From assembly GCA_017404685.1 (NCBI GenBank), contig JAFRBW010000009.1, positions 1 through 37,759 on the forward strand: 37,759 bases of DNA. Direction: 5' to 3'. This DNA comes from Candidatus Saccharimonadota bacterium. GTDB taxonomy: Bacteria > Patescibacteriota > Saccharimonadia > Saccharimonadales > Saccharimonadaceae. Below the pieces are notes generated by a model that was not told the DNA's origin, did not search any database, and saw nothing but the letters and a program-made list of their open reading frames with translations. The translations under genes were made by a program, and so were the position numbers. Of the stretch, positions 25,017 to 34,083 are shown in pieces; the first letter of the stretch is position 1, and each line of letters starts with the position of its first letter.

Positions 25017-26132
25017 TCACTTCATCATATCCGGCACCTTATCAATGCTCCAGCCGCCAGAAGCTGGCGATTCATACTCAAAATACCCCCGATACGACTC
25101 GCGCGAACGCTCATATTTTTCAAAATCATGCTCTTTCAAAAGCCTCAGCCTCTTTTTCACGCGCCGCACCGTCCTAGACATACACACTATCCTGAGCACC
25201 TGATTCCCCTTCCGAGTGCGCTCCAGATAATATCTATATCCCAGAAAAGAAAACCCAGTTTTAGAGGAGCAATTATATATTGCCGACTTCGGATTCATCT
25301 TCAATTTGTGCTCCACTATTTTTACTTCAATCTTTCTCATCCATTCATAAAGCTGTTTCTTATCCGTGCCAAGAAGAATAAAATCATCCATATATCTAAT
25401 ATAATACACACATTTTAGCCCTTCCTTAATATAATGATCCACTTCATCCAAATAGAAAATCGCCAAAAACTGCGATGCCATCGCGCCAATAGATAACCCT
25501 CTGCCCTTACCATAGTGTGGTATATTAGTATGATAACACTGGTTAAACTTATCAATCACATTATTGATATATGGCTTATTGGTTTCATCGATGATTCTTC
25601 TCAAGATCTCCAGCACATCCTTGTCTTTCACTCTTCTTCTCAATTTCTCAAACAAGATTTCATGATCTATAGAGTAAAAATATTTAGAAATATCGATTTT
25701 TAGCGCATATATTTTCGCTTCAGGATTTTCTGCCAAAATTCTTGCAAAATATTGCTTCATTTTCTTTGTCGCATAAGATGCACCCAGCTTCAGTCTTGTT
25801 GCCACGTTCGTATCTACTAATGTATTTTCAAGCAGCGGTATCAAATACCGTTTTGCCACAAAATGATTCACCACCTTATCTCGGATAGACTGACTCATTA
25901 CTAGCCTCGGCTTTGGTTCAAAAATCATAAAACACCGAAACTTATTCGGATAATACTTTCTCGCTTTCAGTTCATTTAGCAATCTACTCACTCTCGCATG
26001 TCCATACATCGCAAACTCAAATAGTCCCTGTTTGTTCTTACAAGTATGCAAAACCGTATTCCAAGCGGCATATAGGTTCTCATACGTCAAGGCCTCGTCA
26101 TAGATTTTTGGAGATTTACGATGTTTCTTCAT
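25017..26132 (-). CDS. DGR reverse transcriptase
   Basis: A 371-residue retroelement-type reverse transcriptase. The motifs in order are KIDISKYFYSIDHEIL (catalytic Asp near residue 147), the DGR-type motif 4 SIGAMASQ (214-221, compare IGNLTSQ in other DGR RTs) and the polymerase YMDD at 247-250. Then come KLKMNPKSAIYNCSSKTGFSFLGYRY, the finger/thumb segment typical of bacterial RTs. There is no maturase or endonuclease domain. In DGRs the RT with Avd copies the TR RNA, misincorporating opposite adenines, and the cDNA replaces VR. Its ATG overlaps the avd stop (ATGA). With a matching TR/VR pair nearby, the assignment is firm. Confidence 0.96.
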   Translation of the reverse strand: MKKHRKSPKIYDEALTYENLYAAWNTVLHTCKNKQGLFEFAMYGHARVSRLLNELKARKYYPNKFRCFMIFEPKPRLVMSQSIRDKVVNHFVAKRYLIPLLENTLVDTNVATRLKLGASYATKKMKQYFARILAENPEAKIYALKIDISKYFYSIDHEILFEKLRRRVKDKDVLEILRRIIDETNKPYINNVIDKFNQCYHTNIPHYGKGRGLSIGAMASQFLAIFYLDEVDHYIKEGLKCVYYIRYMDDFILLGTDKKQLYEWMRKIEVKIVEHKLKMNPKSAIYNCSSKTGFSFLGYRYYLERTRKGNQVLRIVCMSRTVRRVKKRLRLLKEHDFEKYERSRESYRGYFEYESPASGGWSIDKVPDMMK

Positions 26133-26587
26133 AATTCCTCTTTTTCGTTTAGTCCAGTGGTACCAGATGTATTAGCCGCCAGTTTCTTGGTTTCATTCTT
26201 TACCCACGCCCACACTATATTCATAACTTCCTTTTGTTTATCAGCACAGATTTCGAATCTTCGTGCAGATTTTGCATCCAGTTTTTTCTTTTCCTTTCCA
26301 CGATAGCACACATCGCGTATTTCCTTTAGGTATGTCTCCACCATCGCCATCTCAATCTTCAGTTCAATCAGACGATGTTGCCTTTCTCGCCTAGTTGTTA
26401 GAGAGGCATAATACATCGCGTGCCATGCCCTATCCATCGTCACGCGCAATGCCTCCCGATATTCAGAAAATCCCGCCGGGATTTGCGGGATAATAAATAT
26501 TCTCAAATACTCATCCAGCTGTAGCATTGCGACCTTAATTTTAAATGGTTGGAATACTGGTTTTTTGTCATCCGATTTTTGTATCAT
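26129..26587 (-). CDS. avd: DGR accessory variability determinant (Avd-like)
   Basis: A 152-residue, basic, almost wholly helical protein. Helices around residues 24-34, 45-66, 70-100 and 108-135 fit the four-helix bundle of Avd, which forms a pentameric barrel that binds the DGR RT and template RNA. Family-like features include YLRIFIIPQIPAGFSEYREALRV-type spacing, AWHAMYYAS and RLIELKIEMAMVETYLKEIRD. The GAGAGGAAA SD precedes the ATG. It is translationally coupled to the RT by an ATGA overlap and lies downstream of TR. Confidence 0.88.
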   Translation of the reverse strand: MIQKSDDKKPVFQPFKIKVAMLQLDEYLRIFIIPQIPAGFSEYREALRVTMDRAWHAMYYASLTTRRERQHRLIELKIEMAMVETYLKEIRDVCYRGKEKKKLDAKSARRFEICADKQKEVMNIVWAWVKNETKKLAANTSGTTGLNEKEEL

Positions 26588-26898
26588 TTTTCCTCTCTTT
26601 ATTTCTTATCAGCTTCAGCGAGCCCGACTCTTCAAGCATCTGCTCTACTTGCCAGTCTCGCCTCCACTTGTTATGATATTCAAGCTAGGAATACTAGATT
26701 CCCTCACTTAAGCAACCTACCTATTTCACTTATCTTCGTCCATCATTAGAGCCTATCTTTTCAGAATAGGATTATGATGTATCTCTGCAAGGAAAATTAA
26801 TTCCAAGCGATTAAGCAATGGGGCCTCCATACAAGACAATGTTTTTATAAAAAACAACCAGTATCTTAACCCCAGCTTACGAAAAAGTTCGTGAAAGT
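26588..26898 (-). ncRNA. DGR RNA spacer between TR and avd
   Basis: This 311-nt non-coding stretch lies 3' of TR in the transcribed (minus) direction, where DGR template RNAs carry a structured part needed for cDNA priming. Two hairpins are visible: CCTAT-CT/AG-ATAGG with a GAAA tetraloop and one bulge (26752-26770), and TATTC/GAATA (26677-26693). No convincing ORF is present. The functional role is inferred from DGR biology. Confidence 0.5.
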
Positions 26899-27035
26899 GC
26901 CGGACGCACCCCATTCGTGTTGTTCACGTTGTTGTTGTTGAGGTTGCCATTCGAGTTCAGGTTGAAGACGTTCGCGTTGCCGTTCGAGTTCCGGTTATAC
27001 GGAGAGAGCAACCAGAAGTTAGAGCCGGAGCGAAG
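26899..27035 (-). repeat. DGR template repeat (TR)
   Basis: This 137-nt repeat is matched without gaps by VR at 27383-27519. In the minus (sense) orientation it is full of AAC/AAT codons (36 adenines by my count). Twenty-four adenines differ in VR and none of the 101 other bases do. Identity stops sharply at both ends, with partial similarity beyond the 3' side (IMH-like region). Confidence 0.95.
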
Positions 27036-27306
27036 CCGACTCCAGAAATCAAACTGGACACTCGGCAAGATACAACACGGTGCACAATCTCGTTTTTACG
27101 ATAAGCTGCTTCGGAGTCTTAGTGGCTCCGCTTCTACCCAGAATGATCTTATTCTATCCAGGAGCGGAGCCACTAACACAGCAAACTTTAAGGTTTCGGG
27201 GGATGCTTCGCATCCGCCCTTGTGGTGGCTCCGGCAGAGCCTTCGCCGCCACATTTTTTGGGCTATCGCTACGCGATAGTTTTCTGGAACGTCTATATTT
27301 ACTCCT
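27036..27306 (-). other. Stem-loop-rich spacer between target gene and TR
   Basis: This 271-bp non-coding spacer contains a perfect 13-bp inverted repeat (27120-27132, 27163-27175) with a nested GAAT/ATTC, a CTATCGC/GCGATAG hairpin (27263-27279), and GGATGC/GCATCC and GGCTC/GAGCC hairpins. DGRs often have a stem-loop after VR that aids homing; which, if any, plays that role is unclear. Confidence 0.55.
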
Positions 27307-30093
27307 TTACCATGTTACAGTCCAAGGACTTGCTGCGGTGCCATCGCCACCACTGATCATCGTTCCAGAGGCGAGGGAAATGGCCGGACGCACCCCATAC
27401 GCGTCGCTCACGCCGCCGTAGTTGAGGTCGCCATCCGAGTACAGGAAGAAGACGACCGCGTAGCCGACCGAGGACCGGTAATACGGAGAGAGCAACCAGA
27501 AGACAGAGCCGGAGCGAAGGAAGGAATTTGCGTTATAGGAAGAACCATTAGTAGCGGTTGAGCTACCAGAACCAGCAAATGATGCTTCGTCAGCAGTAAT
27601 TAATGCTACTGGGTAAGTAAGCTGGCCATTACCACCACTGGCGGTAGTAGTACTATAAGTGTCCACTATACCACGTGGGCAACCTAGGGTTGGGGTTTGG
27701 GCAGAGTTGTAGTTTCTCGCATATGCGCCATAGCGATAAATTGTCATACTGGAAGTGCCATAAGGAATTACAGTAGTGGATTCTGCCAGTTTACTGCTGA
27801 GAGCGTAGGAACCATCCGGGTAAGTTGTTCTATCTGCACAGTAACCGGCATTGGCTTCTAGGTGGGATGTGTAGCTAGTCATATTAGAGCTATACCAGGA
27901 TTCTATATACTTCTTAATGATGGAGCTATTGGTATTAGTAGTAGTATCATTGCCAGATGAACCAAATAGGGTGCTGAGAGCAGTAGCAGAAGTGGTGCTT
28001 GCAGCTACATTACTATATGTGTAACCCACAGCATGCATATTCTTATACTGGAGACCAGTGTAGCTAGTGCCGGCAACTGTAGCGGAGCTAGTATTAAATG
28101 GTGCAGTAGTGAGCTCAGCGTTTGTCCCGGCATTTGCACAGGTAGAACCAGTCCAAGTGCCGTTGTAGATCATCTTCACGCCACCGGAGCCGGTAGTGCG
28201 GAGGATACGCCAGCAGGTATTGTTGTCTAGCTTTACGTAGTTTGGATAGGCGGCGCCATCACCGTCAGAGCCATAAGAGCCAGTAGTATTGTCTAGAATG
28301 CCGCGATAATAGTAGATGGTGCTGGTGTTAGCGGCGTCGCTAGCCGCACCGAATACTGACGAATTGTAAGTATATACACCCGAGTTGGAGGCGCTAATAC
28401 TTTCTTGGAGCTGTGCGGCGGTCTGAGTGCCCTTAGTCATCGCAGCAATCGTATCATAGAGAGATAATGCACTACTCTTTCCAGTAGCTGTCAAGGCACC
28501 AGCACCTGCACCAGTCAGTGTAACAGTCGTAGGGTTCGTCGTAGTATTAGACACGTTGATATTAGTACCAGCCGTCCAGGAATCAAACTCGTAGTTCTCG
28601 CTAAGACTCATCGTAGCAGTATACGCAGTGCCATATTTCAGTTGTACAGTTGAACTTGCGGATGTAGCTGTAACAATATCAGTATTGTCAGAAGCATTAG
28701 TAAATACTACCTGGTTAGCTCCGTCTTGAAAGGTTACAGTGACACCATAAGAGTTCAGGGTAGCGCTTGGAGTAATGGTAGCATTGCCTGCCCCTACAGT
28801 ATAAGTTATATTATTATTGCTAACAGTTACTTCACCGGCAGTAGCGTTCCAAGAGCCCAAAGAATACCCAGCAGCCAGCGTCACAGCTAACGTATAGTCC
28901 TTACCATAGATAAGCGTCTTAGTACAACCTGCACCAGACACTGCCGCAGTACATACTGTGCCATCTAAGGTAACACTGCTAATACCAGCGACCGTACCAT
29001 ACTTGATAGAATAGGTATTTATATTCCACATCGCTTTTAGTGTCACCGATACCACTTCGTCTATGTCAAAGGTGATATCGCTCCCAGCCGCATATTCTGT
29101 ACCGGAGCAGGTATCATTCGCATAAGCTGTACTCGTGACCGTACCAAGGCACCACTTATTAAACGTGTGGCCCGTCCAGGTTGGAACGTCTGAGGAGAGT
29201 GTAACCGTGGTTGTAGAGGCGTTGTTTAGAGCATCGGATTGATTTCCCGGGAGGCCGGAAGCGGAGTTTCCGGCAGCACCGGCGTTGTAATAAATCCCGT
29301 AGGTGGTTGGATGAGCGGTGGCAGCGAAGGACATGGTAGTAGAGTAGTTGCCGGCAGTTAGGCTACTATCTACTTTTGCTCCAACACGAAGATTAGATGT
29401 AACGCCATTGGTTTTGGTGTAGATTTCGTCAATCTTAGTGCCATCACTACCTGGAGCAGCAATATAGGAAGTTGCGTCATCTTGCGTTAGCTTATAACCC
29501 CAACGATTGGTAGTAAAAGAACAGGTCGAAGCGGTGGCTGTAGTACAAGTGAAAGTTCCCGTACTAGCGAGAGTAGAAAGCGTATTGGAACTAGTAGTAG
29601 TCAAGGAACCGTCTGCATTGGTCGTAGAGAGAGTAAGATAATACCCCGTGGCATTAGAAGTGGCCACAGTGACGTCTAAATCTGAATACCCAAACACTGG
29701 AGTACCATCAATGTTTGGTTTGATATTGAGACCAAGGCTAGTTGGGCTAGTAGTAAGACCATCGCCTGCTAGCACTATTTCTAGAGTTGGAGTGGCGTCC
29801 ACGGATAGTGAAAAATCTACATCATTTGATCCAATCTCGGCATAGGCATTGCAAGAGAGGCAAGCAATGCCTAGCGCTAGTGCAGGAATTAATATAACCG
29901 CGCGGGTGGCAGCTGCGGAGGGGGTCCCCCAAAATTGCCGCCAATTTTGGGGGAGGACAGCAGCTGACAGGACCCGCGCCATATGTTTAATAATCCTGCA
30001 CGTAGAGTTATTGCTGCATTTTTTGCGCGTATCCAGAATAACTCTACGTGGAGAATTGTTAAGTTTTACTTTGATTTTTTGTATGACCTGCAT
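27307..30093 (-). CDS. DGR target: secreted InlB-repeat/DUF6273-like variable protein
   Basis: A 928-codon frame for an exported protein that is diversified by the DGR. A signal peptide occupies about residues 65-85 (AVILIPALALGIACLSC, cleavage near AYA). Next are a beta-rich Thr/Ser/Asn-rich domain, an InlB B-repeat (Flg_new-type, about 280-370, ending VTLKAMWN), divergent InlB-type repeats (about 375-560) and a C-terminal domain. The C-terminal domain carries CWRILR, FWLLSPY and GVRPAI, resembling DUF6273/C-type-lectin-like folds used by many DGR targets. VR covers residues about 859-904. The start is uncertain: the ATG at 30093 has a closely spaced AAAGGA, while the ATG at 29982 gives a more normal signal peptide. 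A palindromic element encodes residues about 39-64. Confidence 0.88.
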   Translation of the reverse strand: MQVIQKIKVKLNNSPRRVILDTRKKCSNNSTCRIIKHMARVLSAAVLPQNWRQFWGTPSAAATRAVILIPALALGIACLSCNAYAEIGSNDVDFSLSVDATPTLEIVLAGDGLTTSPTSLGLNIKPNIDGTPVFGYSDLDVTVATSNATGYYLTLSTTNADGSLTTTSSNTLSTLASTGTFTCTTATASTCSFTTNRWGYKLTQDDATSYIAAPGSDGTKIDEIYTKTNGVTSNLRVGAKVDSSLTAGNYSTTMSFAATAHPTTYGIYYNAGAAGNSASGLPGNQSDALNNASTTTVTLSSDVPTWTGHTFNKWCLGTVTSTAYANDTCSGTEYAAGSDITFDIDEVVSVTLKAMWNINTYSIKYGTVAGISSVTLDGTVCTAAVSGAGCTKTLIYGKDYTLAVTLAAGYSLGSWNATAGEVTVSNNNITYTVGAGNATITPSATLNSYGVTVTFQDGANQVVFTNASDNTDIVTATSASSTVQLKYGTAYTATMSLSENYEFDSWTAGTNINVSNTTTNPTTVTLTGAGAGALTATGKSSALSLYDTIAAMTKGTQTAAQLQESISASNSGVYTYNSSVFGAASDAANTSTIYYYRGILDNTTGSYGSDGDGAAYPNYVKLDNNTCWRILRTTGSGGVKMIYNGTWTGSTCANAGTNAELTTAPFNTSSATVAGTSYTGLQYKNMHAVGYTYSNVAASTTSATALSTLFGSSGNDTTTNTNSSIIKKYIESWYSSNMTSYTSHLEANAGYCADRTTYPDGSYALSSKLAESTTVIPYGTSSMTIYRYGAYARNYNSAQTPTLGCPRGIVDTYSTTTASGGNGQLTYPVALITADEASFAGSGSSTATNGSSYNANSFLRSGSVFWLLSPYYRSSVGYAVVFFLYSDGDLNYGGVSDAYGVRPAISLASGTMISGGDGTAASPWTVTW
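27383..27519 (-). repeat. DGR variable repeat (VR)
   Basis: This 137-nt repeat lies in the 3' end of the target gene, same length and phase as TR. All 24 differences are at TR adenines, with A changed to G, T or C (sense strand). It encodes the FWLLSPY...GVRPAI part of the lectin-like domain. Confidence 0.95.
29902..29977 (-). repeat. In-frame palindromic repeat element, copy 3 (DGR target)
   Basis: This 76-bp palindrome has the murB element's architecture: GCGGGT ends, a GCAGCTG inner pair and CCCCCAAAATT/AATTTTGGGGG core, ending CAGGACCCGC. It encodes the stretch just before the signal peptide's hydrophobic run. Confidence 0.75.
29999..30050 (-). repeat. Perfect 14-bp inverted repeat near the target start
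   Basis: CACGTAGAGTTATT (29999-30012) and its complement (30037-30050) surround a 24-nt loop. It lies between the two candidate start codons and would form a strong hairpin in the mRNA. Confidence 0.7.
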
Positions 30094-30382: not shown

Positions 30383-32470
30383 CTACTCCCACACCGGCAA
30401 ATCATCCGGAAACGGATCGGCATCAAACCCAAAATCATCCTGAGAAAAAGTTCCCGCCTGATCGCTAAAACTATCCGTAAACCCATCGCCATCCTCGTCA
30501 CGATACCCGCTAAAGTCAGTCGGCGCGCCATATGGATTATACCCAATCTCCGTCAAAAATCTCGATGGTATATTGTAGTTCCGGCTCCCAAACGAATACC
30601 TAGACTGCGCATACGTCAAATACAACTTTTTCATCGCCCGCGTCATCCCCACATACATCAACCGCCGCTCTTCTTCCATTTCATCGTCGCTCTCATACGC
30701 ACGCGATCCTGGAAATAGCCCCTCCTCTAGCCCCACCACAAACACCACCGCAAACTCCAACCCTTTCGCCGCATGGAGCGTCATCAGCGTCACCGCATCT
30801 TGCTCCGTCTCTTCATCCGCCGACGAAAACAGCGCCGCATCCACCAAAAACTCATCAAGACTCGCATAATCTTCCGCAATTTTTATCAAAACTTTCAAGT
30901 TCGCAATCCTATCTTCACCATTGTCCACTTTTGTCTCAAAAATCGTCTCAAAATCAAAATAATCTATAACCCGTTTGATAATCTGGCTTGGCACCGCCGC
31001 ATCTCTCATTTCCCAGAGAAAATCCACCAGCCGCTTCATTCCGTTTCGCGCTTTCGCCGTTTTCAAAACGTCCACCAACTCCGGATCAAGCAACGGCTTA
31101 TCCGTAGCTTGTTCCTCCGAAATCACATCCACCGCCATCAAAACCTTATTCACCGAAGCATCGCCCACGCCAGACAACACATTTTTCATCACTCTTTCAA
31201 GGCTCACTTTGTCCTTTTCATTCGCAATCAAATGCAAAATCGCCAGCACGTCCTTAATTTCACGCCGATCATAAAATCTCACGCCACCCACCACTTTATA
31301 GGGCAACTGTAATTCCATAAAGGCTTTCTCAAACGCATACGATTGTGCGTTTGTCCGATACAAAATCGCAAAATTATCATATCCGCCATATTTAGCGACC
31401 AGCGCCTGAATTTTCCTTCCCACAAACGCCGCTTCCGCTTCTTCATCCGCAAGTTGCACAATTTCCACATCTTCGCCATCGCCCGCTTCCGTAAACAACT
31501 TCTTATCCGTTCGCGTTTTATTTTCTTGAATTATTTTTTGCGACGCTTCCAAAATCTTTCCCGTCGAACGATAATTCTGCTCCAACTTTATCACTTTTGC
31601 TCCCGGAAAATCTTTCTCAAAACTCAAAATATTCGTAAAATCCGCTCCGCGCCACGAATAAATCGACTGCCAATCATCCCCCACCACGCAAATATTTCGT
31701 TCTTCCCCCACAAGCAGCCGAATAATCTGATATTGCACTGCATTTGTGTCCTGATACTCATCAATCAAAATATGCCGAAACCTCTCCTGCCACTTTTTCC
31801 GCACATCTTTATTATTCTTGAAAAGCTCCAGCGTCCTTAGCAGCAAATCATCAAAATCCAACGCCCCCATACTATTCTTTTCGCGTTCATACTCACGATA
31901 TATTTCCGCCACTTCGCGATGATTTCTGAAATACTTTTTCTTCGAATCATGCTCATATAGCTCTGGCGTTACACCTTTATTTTTTTCGCTCGATATCAAA
32001 GAAAGCACGTTCTTCGGCTTCAAATCTTTCGTATTTATTTCAAGCCGCTTCATAATCCGCTTCACAAGCGTAGCTTGATCGTCAGAATCATAGATCGTAA
32101 ATCTCCTATCAATCCTCGCCGCCTCCGCCTCAATCCTCAGAATCCTCACGCATATCCCATGGAACGTCCCCATATACGGCATAAAAGACCTAGGAGGATT
32201 CGCCGCATCGACTGGCGCGAGCGAAGCAGGTTGAGAAAAGTTCGCAACAAGATTCCAGAGCCGTACCCTCATCTCGTTTGCCGCCTTATTCGTAAACGTC
32301 ACCGCGAGAATATTCTCCTGCCGTACTCCATGTAGAATCAAATTTGCAATCCTATGCGTCAAAGTCTTCGTTTTCCCCGACCCAGCCCCCGCCAAAATTA
32401 AAATCGGCCCTTCTAGCGTCTCCACCGCTTCCCTTTGTGCTGTATTTAATCCCTCCGTCACCATATCCAT
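30383..32470 (-). CDS. UvrD/PcrA-type superfamily 1A DNA helicase
   Basis: A 695-residue 3'-5' DNA helicase with the SF1A motifs in order: LNTAQREAV (Q motif), AGAGSGKTKTL (Walker A), VTFTNKAANEM (Ia), DEYQDTN (II), VVGDDWQSIYSWRGAD (III), EQNYRST (IV), VTLMTLHAAKGLEF (V) and LMYVGMTRA (VI). These enzymes act in repair, recombination and replication restart. About 15-20 extra residues (NFSQPASLAPVDAANPP) lie before GTFHGIC and are unusual. The C-terminal tail is acidic, rich in Asp and Phe. The start at 32468-32470 is 6 nt after TATAAT. Confidence 0.95.
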   Translation of the reverse strand: MDMVTEGLNTAQREAVETLEGPILILAGAGSGKTKTLTHRIANLILHGVRQENILAVTFTNKAANEMRVRLWNLVANFSQPASLAPVDAANPPRSFMPYMGTFHGICVRILRIEAEAARIDRRFTIYDSDDQATLVKRIMKRLEINTKDLKPKNVLSLISSEKNKGVTPELYEHDSKKKYFRNHREVAEIYREYEREKNSMGALDFDDLLLRTLELFKNNKDVRKKWQERFRHILIDEYQDTNAVQYQIIRLLVGEERNICVVGDDWQSIYSWRGADFTNILSFEKDFPGAKVIKLEQNYRSTGKILEASQKIIQENKTRTDKKLFTEAGDGEDVEIVQLADEEAEAAFVGRKIQALVAKYGGYDNFAILYRTNAQSYAFEKAFMELQLPYKVVGGVRFYDRREIKDVLAILHLIANEKDKVSLERVMKNVLSGVGDASVNKVLMAVDVISEEQATDKPLLDPELVDVLKTAKARNGMKRLVDFLWEMRDAAVPSQIIKRVIDYFDFETIFETKVDNGEDRIANLKVLIKIAEDYASLDEFLVDAALFSSADEETEQDAVTLMTLHAAKGLEFAVVFVVGLEEGLFPGSRAYESDDEMEEERRLMYVGMTRAMKKLYLTYAQSRYSFGSRNYNIPSRFLTEIGYNPYGAPTDFSGYRDEDGDGFTDSFSDQAGTFSQDDFGFDADPFPDDLPVWE

Positions 32471-32476
32471 CATACC

Positions 32477-32482
32477 ATTATA
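32477..32482 (-). promoter_or_regulatory. Helicase gene extended -10 box
   Basis: TGGTATAAT on the minus strand ends 6 nt before the chosen ATG (32468-32470); a nearer ATG (3 nt) lies directly upstream in frame. Confidence 0.6.
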
Positions 32483-32519
32483 CCACACATTTATGCTTGC
32501 AAAATTATTCATGCCGTGA

Positions 32520-32525
32520 TATAAT
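32520..32525 (+). promoter_or_regulatory. murA extended -10 box
   Basis: TGATATAAT ends 7 nt before the ATG at 32533; a leaderless transcript is predicted. Confidence 0.65.
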
Positions 32526-32532
32526 TCATTTC

Positions 32533-34083
32533 ATGAAAAAACAGAAGACTTATCAGCAAGTCATTGGCGAAACTATCGAGCAAATGCGCACCGAAAAAGG
32601 TTGGACCCAAGGCGAGCTCGCCGAAAAAATCGGCACCAGCCAGTCCGCCATTCATCGCGTTGAAAAAGGTGGCCAAAACATTTCCCTCGAAATGATCAAG
32701 AAACTCTCCGAGGCCCTCGGCACTCAGATTCTCTCTATAAATGACTCCGCCTCGCAGAGTTATCGCATCCGCGGCGGCAAAGAATTACATGGCGAAATCA
32801 CCATCAACACTTCCAAAAACGCTGCCGTTAGTATCCTTTGCGCCGCACTTCTAAACTCCGGCAAGACCACCCTTCGCCGCGTCGCTCGCATTGAAGAAGT
32901 TTATCGCATTATCGAAGTTCTAGAGTCAATCGGCGTCAAATGCCACTGGCAAAACCGTCATCGCGACCTAGAAATTATATCACCACGCGAATTAAAACTC
33001 GACGAAATGAATATCGATGCTGCACGAAGGACCCGTTCCATCATTATGTTCCTCGGCCCATTTCTCCATCGCTACAAAAAGTTCCACATTCCATACGCTG
33101 GCGGCTGTTCGCTCGGCACACGCACGGTAGAGCCGCACATCCAAGCTCTCAAATCTTTCGGTCTTGATGTCGATGCAGAGTGCAATAGCGGCTTTTATGA
33201 AGTCTCCGTCCGCGAAGAAACTTTGCATAAATACACCGATCGTTACATCGTCCTTTCCGAACGTGGCGATACTGTCACCGAAAACGTCCTCATGGCCGCC
33301 GCTCTCGCGCCAGGCAAGACCACCATCGTCGGCGCTTCGCCAAATTACATGGTCCAAGACCTCTGCTTCTTTCTCGAAAAACTCGGCGTCAAAATCTCCG
33401 GCATCGGCACCACCACTTTGACCATTCGCGGCCGTTCCGAAATCAACGAAGACGTCGAATATTTCCTTTCCGAAGACCCCATCGAGGCCATGAGCTTCAT
33501 CGCCGCCGCTCTCGTCACCAATTCCGAAATCACCATTCTTCGCGCTCCTATCGAATTTCTCGAAATCGAGCTCGAAGTCTTAAAAACCATGGGCGCCAAG
33601 ATTGACAAAACTCGCGAATATCGTTCCATGAACGACCGCACTCGTCTCGTCGATCTCACCATCAAAAAATCCGAGCTCCACGCCCCGGTCGACAAAATCC
33701 ATCCTATGCCCTTCCCAGGTCTTAATATAGACAATCTCCCATTTTTCTCCGTCATCGCCGCCGTTGCCACTGGCCGCACTCTTATCCACGACTGGGTTTT
33801 TGAAAATCGCGCCATCTACACCACCGAGCTTGCCAACCTCAATGTCAAAGTCGAGCTCCTCGACGCTCACCGCGTCTATGTCGAAGGCCCTACCAACTGG
33901 CACCCAGCCGAGCTCGTCGCTCCGCAGGCTCTCCGCCCAGCCGTCGTGATTCTCATCGGTATGCTTGCCGCTCCTGGCACTTCCATTTTGCGCAACGTCT
34001 ATCCTATCAACCGCGGTTACCAAGATTTCGCCGCTCGTCTCCGCCATCTCGGCGCCGACATTACTCCGCTCACCGGTATTTAG
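32533..34083 (+). CDS. murA: XRE helix-turn-helix-MurA fusion
   Basis: MurA transfers enolpyruvate from PEP to UDP-GlcNAc, the first committed step of peptidoglycan synthesis. The 516-residue product has an XRE/Cro helix-turn-helix at about residues 8-66 (GWTQGELAEKIGTSQSAIHRVEKG), joined directly to a complete MurA from about residue 77. MurA signatures include TSKNAAVS (Lys95-Asn96), AGGCSLGTRTVEPHI with the PEP-binding and fosfomycin-target cysteine (Cys192), and the C-terminal NRGYQDFAARLRHLGADI. The DNA-binding part suggests the enzyme could report substrate state to transcription, possibly of its own gene; this is inference. The start is set by the -10 box 7 nt upstream. The longer frame is antisense to the helicase. 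Confidence 0.93.
   Translation: MKKQKTYQQVIGETIEQMRTEKGWTQGELAEKIGTSQSAIHRVEKGGQNISLEMIKKLSEALGTQILSINDSASQSYRIRGGKELHGEITINTSKNAAVSILCAALLNSGKTTLRRVARIEEVYRIIEVLESIGVKCHWQNRHRDLEIISPRELKLDEMNIDAARRTRSIIMFLGPFLHRYKKFHIPYAGGCSLGTRTVEPHIQALKSFGLDVDAECNSGFYEVSVREETLHKYTDRYIVLSERGDTVTENVLMAAALAPGKTTIVGASPNYMVQDLCFFLEKLGVKISGIGTTTLTIRGRSEINEDVEYFLSEDPIEAMSFIAAALVTNSEITILRAPIEFLEIELEVLKTMGAKIDKTREYRSMNDRTRLVDLTIKKSELHAPVDKIHPMPFPGLNIDNLPFFSVIAAVATGRTLIHDWVFENRAIYTTELANLNVKVELLDAHRVYVEGPTNWHPAELVAPQALRPAVVILIGMLAAPGTSILRNVYPINRGYQDFAARLRHLGADITPLTGI

Follow-up and report, generated by a model that had tools for sequence, protein, structure and literature searches.

Diversity-generating retroelements (DGRs) are said to have been described in Patescibacteria, or Candidate Phyla Radiation (CPR), by Paul et al. 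in 2017. Chromosomal DGRs of CPR hosts with lectin-fold targets were analyzed by Roux et al. 2021 (PMC8144416), according to whom the targets of CPR clade-2 DGRs usually have no recognisable extra domains. The phage-borne DGR of Bordetella phage BPP-1 (mtd, avd, TR, brt) acts on a tail fibre and is arranged in the order variable repeat (VR), avd, template repeat (TR), and reverse transcriptase (RT); its spacer serves to recruit RT-Avd, with an internal adenine as the primer of the cDNA in IMH* (IMH, initiation of mutagenic homing; PMC12875486). In Treponema denticola, a DGR has up to seven dispersed targets, and leftover VR genes are found in RT-less strains (PMC4891356), while cyanobacterial DGRs have remote lectin-domain paralogues, with heads placed on different N-termini genome-wide (PMC7517822). 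Here we describe a locus from a 37,759-nucleotide stretch (hereinafter the window, contig C30) of the genome of a Candidatus Saccharimonadota bacterium (670,103 bases in 37 contigs, 92.9% complete), whose relatives are Saccharibacteria and include two from the gut of goats and sheep.

We are highly confident that this locus is a chromosomal DGR that acts on the lectin-like tip of a secreted protein with a stalk, a reading that draws on its anatomy, the identity of RT and Avd, the adenine specificity, a conserved boundary and helix, and a predicted fold. The comparison of sequences supports a complete DGR on nearly every count (RT clade, Avd fold, adenine-only differences, a VR at the 3' end within a lectin-like fold, and a conserved mark at the TR/VR end). 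With BPP-1 it shares homologous RT and Avd, adenine mutagenesis, a GC-rich VR 3' end, a spacer RNA after TR, and an AATAGG stretch in both spacers; it differs in being located on a bacterial chromosome, in the order VR-TR-avd-RT, and in its target, a secreted stalk protein. Moreover, unlike BPP-1, it has no hairpin directly after VR, and its TR-spacer helix uses sequence 5' of AAUAGG. The CPR host, the chromosomal location, and the lectin-fold target are common to the DGRs of Roux et al. (PMC8144416), whereas the signal-peptide-like N-terminus and the large shared stalk set the window target apart from those of clade 2. CPR DGRs, remote targets, and lectin-fold targets are already published, and the window DGR is a new example of a known system; our literature searches, which left most subscription papers (including Paul et al. 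2017) outside, returned no paper devoted to Saccharibacteria DGRs.

The repeats, their enzymes, and the target

All the parts of the cassette lie on the minus strand, in the order target, TR, avd, and RT, between positions 25017 and 30093; the order VR, TR, avd, RT on one strand, and its coordinates, had been correctly given by a previous reading of this DNA made from its letters alone (the sequence-only reading). The 137-nt VR (27383..27519) stops 76 nt short of the end of the target gene (27307..30093), and the 137-nt TR (26899..27035) contains 36 adenines in 19 codons. When the repeat pair was located mechanically, it measured 143 nt, with 82% identity and 484 bp between the copies. In the 137-nt comparison, 24 of the 36 TR adenines are altered in VR (12 to G, 11 to T, and 1 to C), as opposed to 0/101 of the other bases, and these numbers are exactly those of the sequence-only reading. 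They correspond to the counts over 140 nt (25/37 adenines and 1/103 other bases, Fisher p = 1.5e-17) minus three boundary bases; the extra boundary A and the boundary C of the longer count are a conserved end-of-homing mark and not mutagenesis. Random drift, already discarded by the same reading, is indeed excluded because none of the 101 non-adenine bases changed and a decayed orthologue, that of genome G146, does carry such changes. The recent mutagenesis it had postulated is likewise supported, and the diversification of VR, which is well supported, was probably recent. A genome-wide search with the TR DNA retrieved TR itself and this VR, and nothing else. Adenine changes make 19 TR codons variable, from none of which a stop codon can be reached, and allow 1.6e21 protein combinations.

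The RT (25017..26132, 371 aa) carries the motifs YMDD and IGAMASQ, the latter where IGN..SQ is common, and overlaps avd (26129..26587, 152 aa) by 4 nt (26129-26132). RT, for which the sequence-only reading had proposed a hidden Markov model search, matched phrog_1423 at 1.4e-79; among solved structures it is closest to the DGR RT of Bordetella, 8ub7 (6e-26), followed by a group II RT (7e-10). The maximum-likelihood tree separated the DGR RTs from three group II RTs with a support of 100/100 and placed the window RT, in agreement with the DGR affiliation previously claimed, among RTs linked to Avd and TR, inside a clade of seven found only in Saccharibacteria (100/100). The window Avd gave a weak sequence match when searched alone (E = 0.005), but its identity is clear from the orthologues, 8/8 of which matched phrog_3206 (best 2.3e-10) and 3/8 Pfam bAvd, and from its predicted four-helix bundle, for which Bordetella Avd was the top Foldseek hit (TMt 0.84, probability 1.00, E only 0.02). 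One assembled genome per species was compared, and between species both RT and avd are under purifying selection (proportion of non-synonymous changes, pN, 0.14-0.26), synonymous sites being nearly saturated.

The target, 928 aa as listed, is composed of a signal-peptide-like N-terminus (ending ...CNAYA|EIGSNDVDF), a stalk, a weak InlB-like repeat, and a lectin-like head; its true start is perhaps an inner ATG (MARV...). For the InlB repeat that the sequence-only reading had noted in this secreted protein, the InlB B-repeat match is weak, being under the Pfam cut-off (20.3 vs. 23.6 bits). An inverted repeat, CCCCCAAAATTG...CAATTTTGGGGG, is located within the 5' coding end of the gene (29925-30062).

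The C-terminal head (27310..28440, 377 aa) contains the VR at residues ~308-353 and is C-type-lectin-like and related to DUF6273: phage DUF6273 proteins match it at E ~1e-4, and DUF6273 was matched in 17/42 relatives. Its AlphaFold2 model has a predicted local distance difference test (pLDDT) score of 93. Foldseek alone found no match with E < 0.6 for it in the PDB; a second structural alignment recovered the Legionella Lcl domain (Z 5.3) and many C-type lectin domains (Z ~4). The head may thus be regarded as C-type-lectin-like, as the sequence-only reading had suggested for the variable domain, with a fold match that, at modest Z, is supportive rather than decisive. The top structural match of the head model (residues 64-377) is the N-terminal part of a Thomasclavelia ramosa IgA peptidase (9qa6, residues 37-304; Z 12.6, 200 residues, 15% identity), whose Z far exceeds that of ordinary C-type lectins.

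The secreted stalk and the lectin-like head suggest that the target might mediate adhesion to the host bacterium. Alternatively, it might act as a receptor decoy or a phage-escape surface protein, diversified against phages and not as a host-bacterium adhesin, a possibility raised for cellular targets by Roux et al. 2021 (PMC8144416); an adhesin-like stalk bearing a lectin head fits both functions and no result obtained here separates phage escape from adhesion, although we hold the former to be a doubtful alternative.

The boundary mark and the spacer RNA

The VR 3' end is formed by a GC-rich, IMH-like block of 14 nt (GGGGTGCGTCCGGC, 27383..27396), directly 3' of which TR has AC and VR has CA in 5/5 same-genus species; an analogous mismatch at the TR/VR end was found in three sister-genus cassettes. 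Within the 90 nt after VR there is no stem of at least 6 bp (loop 3-10). The hairpin CTATCGC-GTA-GCGATAG (27263..27279) lies shortly 3' of the target stop codon, and the interval between target and TR (27116-27279) contains a series of short hairpins with GTA/GAA-type loops. Also in the orthologues the target is followed by GAA-loop hairpins resembling those of the window, several with a GNA-like loop ~100 nt after VR. A non-coding block immediately upstream of TR (27072..27117) is conserved in a five-species alignment, and another conserved non-coding block, AAGATAAGTGAAATAGG, lies downstream of TR.

The TR 3' tail UUUCAC (26891..26896) represents the 5' arm of a helix whose 3' arm, GUGAAA, belongs to the spacer element GUGAAAUAGG (26720..26729), where GAAAYAG is conserved in eight loci. 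Across the eight loci, the six-pair helix shows standard pairs in 48/48 cells, with two pairs changed on both sides, and its covariation score was reached by 9/500 shuffles; for the ten-pair version, 0/500 shuffles reached the score, and sliding the partner destroyed the helix. These counts lean towards the helix, since the segments were picked after seeing the helix of RNAalifold and were aligned by hand. In single sequences of the window genus the helix taken alone is not above chance, its support coming from covariation, and the Rfam search gave sub-threshold chance matches only.

By analogy with BPP-1, the TR-spacer RNA might play a similar role in the recruitment of RT-Avd and in cDNA priming. 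According to the mechanism we propose, an RNA spanning TR and its 3' spacer would be bound by RT-Avd, and the helix pairing the TR 3' tail with the GAAAYAG element of the spacer would set where cDNA synthesis begins; RT would then copy TR, misincorporating opposite adenines, and the cDNA would replace VR, with the GC-rich 3' block acting as the homing boundary. In this way, the lectin-like tip of the secreted stalked protein would be re-randomised at up to 19 codons. Transcription, priming, homing, surface display, and ligand binding are all steps that we infer, and the ligand would most likely be other cells or particles.

Orthologous cassettes and the state of the element

Seven orthologous cassettes were found in six other Saccharibacteria belonging to two genera: four genomes of the same genus (G024, G066, G059, and G146) harbor one each, and three sister-genus cassettes, with an RT identity of 50-55%, are present in G288 (two) and G360. 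The TR/VR differences are adenine-biased in all of them, and non-adenine changes within VR are zero in three of the four same-genus relatives (G024, G066, and G059). In G059 a frame break in the YMDD region divides the RT (L042 6609-7713), with TR and VR clean at non-adenine sites; the break might reflect an error in the assembly or damage of very recent date. TR comes after RT in two loci of the sister genus, hence the position of TR moves within the lineage; the arrangement VR-TR-avd-RT, in which the sequence-only reading had seen a possible novelty, is not unique and is found in this lineage together with target-avd-RT-TR.

The flanking genes differ among species: G066 has FtsH, G059 a ComEC-like gene, G146 a cluster of ribosomal-protein genes, and G024 an aldolase near rplY, which implies that the cassette has no single fixed site. 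In the window it is flanked by the ordinary chromosomal genes uvrD/pcrA and rplY; uvrD is next to rplY in no relative searched, so no empty site is available for dating the insertion. The search of viral contigs with the RT retrieved no relatives, and thus no phage carrier is indicated. Elsewhere in the window (32344-34083), a MurA-like gene has an in-frame N-terminal HTH_3 domain (residues 78-129; EPSP synthase fold 143-565).

The cassette of G146, with stop codons in RT, a shortened avd, and eight non-adenine changes besides the boundary, is an internal control showing what drift or lost function looks like. One might then suppose that the window DGR too was recently silenced, its VR having been rewritten in the past by a cassette that is now non-functional: one relative is in such a state, the RT of another (G059) has a frame break, and the comparison relies on assembled genomes. 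However, the RT, avd, and target reading frames of the window cassette are all open, YMDD is kept, and none of the 101 non-adenine sites differs, and for these reasons we consider a silenced element unlikely. Gene conversion or ordinary recombination between duplicated lectin heads, without reverse transcription, is extremely improbable in spite of the head paralogues common in the genus and of a TR-by-VR recombination scar in G035 (L128), given that such an exchange yields no adenine-only pattern and already conflicts with the adenine specificity, and that TR is non-coding, lies in a conserved RNA context, and is adjoined by Avd and a DGR-clade RT.

As for the DGR that we favor, some observations weigh against it. 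The closest conserved hairpin is ~100 nt after VR, beyond the stop codon, and not at the Bordetella position; reading the target sequence by eye, no predictor being used, disclosed no membrane or wall anchor; and having a lectin fold is no proof of binding. Lastly, the view that diversification may be ongoing today derives from one assembled genome.

Further retroelements and dispersed heads

The same 0.67-Mb genome harbors two further DGRs, on contigs C20 and C24, whose RTs fall in a clade other than that of the window RT. Both have TR on the strand opposite to RT, an open reading frame (ORF) of 371 or 279 aa where avd would be, and targets with Fib_succ_major heads. More generally, loci of the genus's other main DGR lineage (L044 9118-9233, L045 5757-5886, and most of L047-L059) mostly have TR and RT on opposite strands, and in the place of avd they carry an ORF of 265-383 aa, with no Pfam match for the two tested. 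The C24 repeats differ at 24/44 adenines and 1/113 other bases. The C20 TR (L044) has seven VRs in the genome, on C20, C28, C1 (twice), C10, C14, and C6 (L044, L170-L174): the cis VR is changed at 20/41 adenines and 0/87 other bases, and five others at 13-17/41 and 2-7/87, respectively, the sixth remote VR, which aligns with a gap, being left unscored. The remote VRs of L172, L174, L171, and L170 are internal and followed by a second lectin-like head, the usual VR being 3'-terminal. With one TR, one RT, and several remote VRs, the C20 DGR resembles that of Treponema denticola; the window DGR, by contrast, has one target, and here three DGRs of two RT lineages are present in a single 0.67-Mb genome.

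Heads similar to that of the window were detected in 39/174 genomes, many of which have several copies. In the unlinked heads of G059 and G050, variation reaches 49-78% at the TR-adenine columns vs. 5-16% elsewhere (figures that omit misaligned or strongly diverged rows, L113 being misaligned and ignored), and the flanking codons for identical residues have diverged by 16-62%. The dispersed G059 heads were rejected as current targets of the assembled TR, as most of them differ at 8-14/98 non-adenine sites, and no fitting TR was found in the G059 and G050 assemblies, that of G050 being sought by pattern. These heads may have been targets in the past, may be targets of a TR missing from the assemblies, or may have arisen by the copying of diversified heads. 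In the G035 scar (L128 1600-2436, G035:C10), the target, the hairpin, and the block upstream of TR are kept, TR is replaced by a diversified VR and another gene end, and RT and avd are gone.

Outside the head, the C20 target is 67% identical to the window target over 443 residues. The window stalk (28894-29976) is matched at ~25 places in the genome, several of them 77-93% identical and some at contig ends, which suggests a recombining stalk family. As several targets have the secreted N-terminal stalk of the window target in common, one genome diversifies several heads on one stalk family. Lectin-head grafting and spread are shared with cyanobacterial DGRs, from which this genome differs in that its stalk family is secreted and belongs to a reduced, host-dependent bacterium. 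It can be speculated, quite tentatively, that the three DGRs, of two unrelated RT lineages, serve one stalk-sharing family of secreted proteins with lectin heads, and that heads hypermutated in the cis target are then copied to unlinked genes encoding the stalk (diversified in cis and archived in trans), which would provide a large, partly stored recognition repertoire.

The TR-spacer helix and the TR/VR end mark, conserved over two genera, represent markers for finding more cassettes of this kind. Saccharibacteria live attached to other bacteria, and a DGR that rewrites the tip of a secreted, stalked protein offers a concrete candidate for a role in their host recognition. With three DGRs and ~9 VRs in 670 kb, programmed mutation appears to act on a considerable number of surface proteins for such a small genome.

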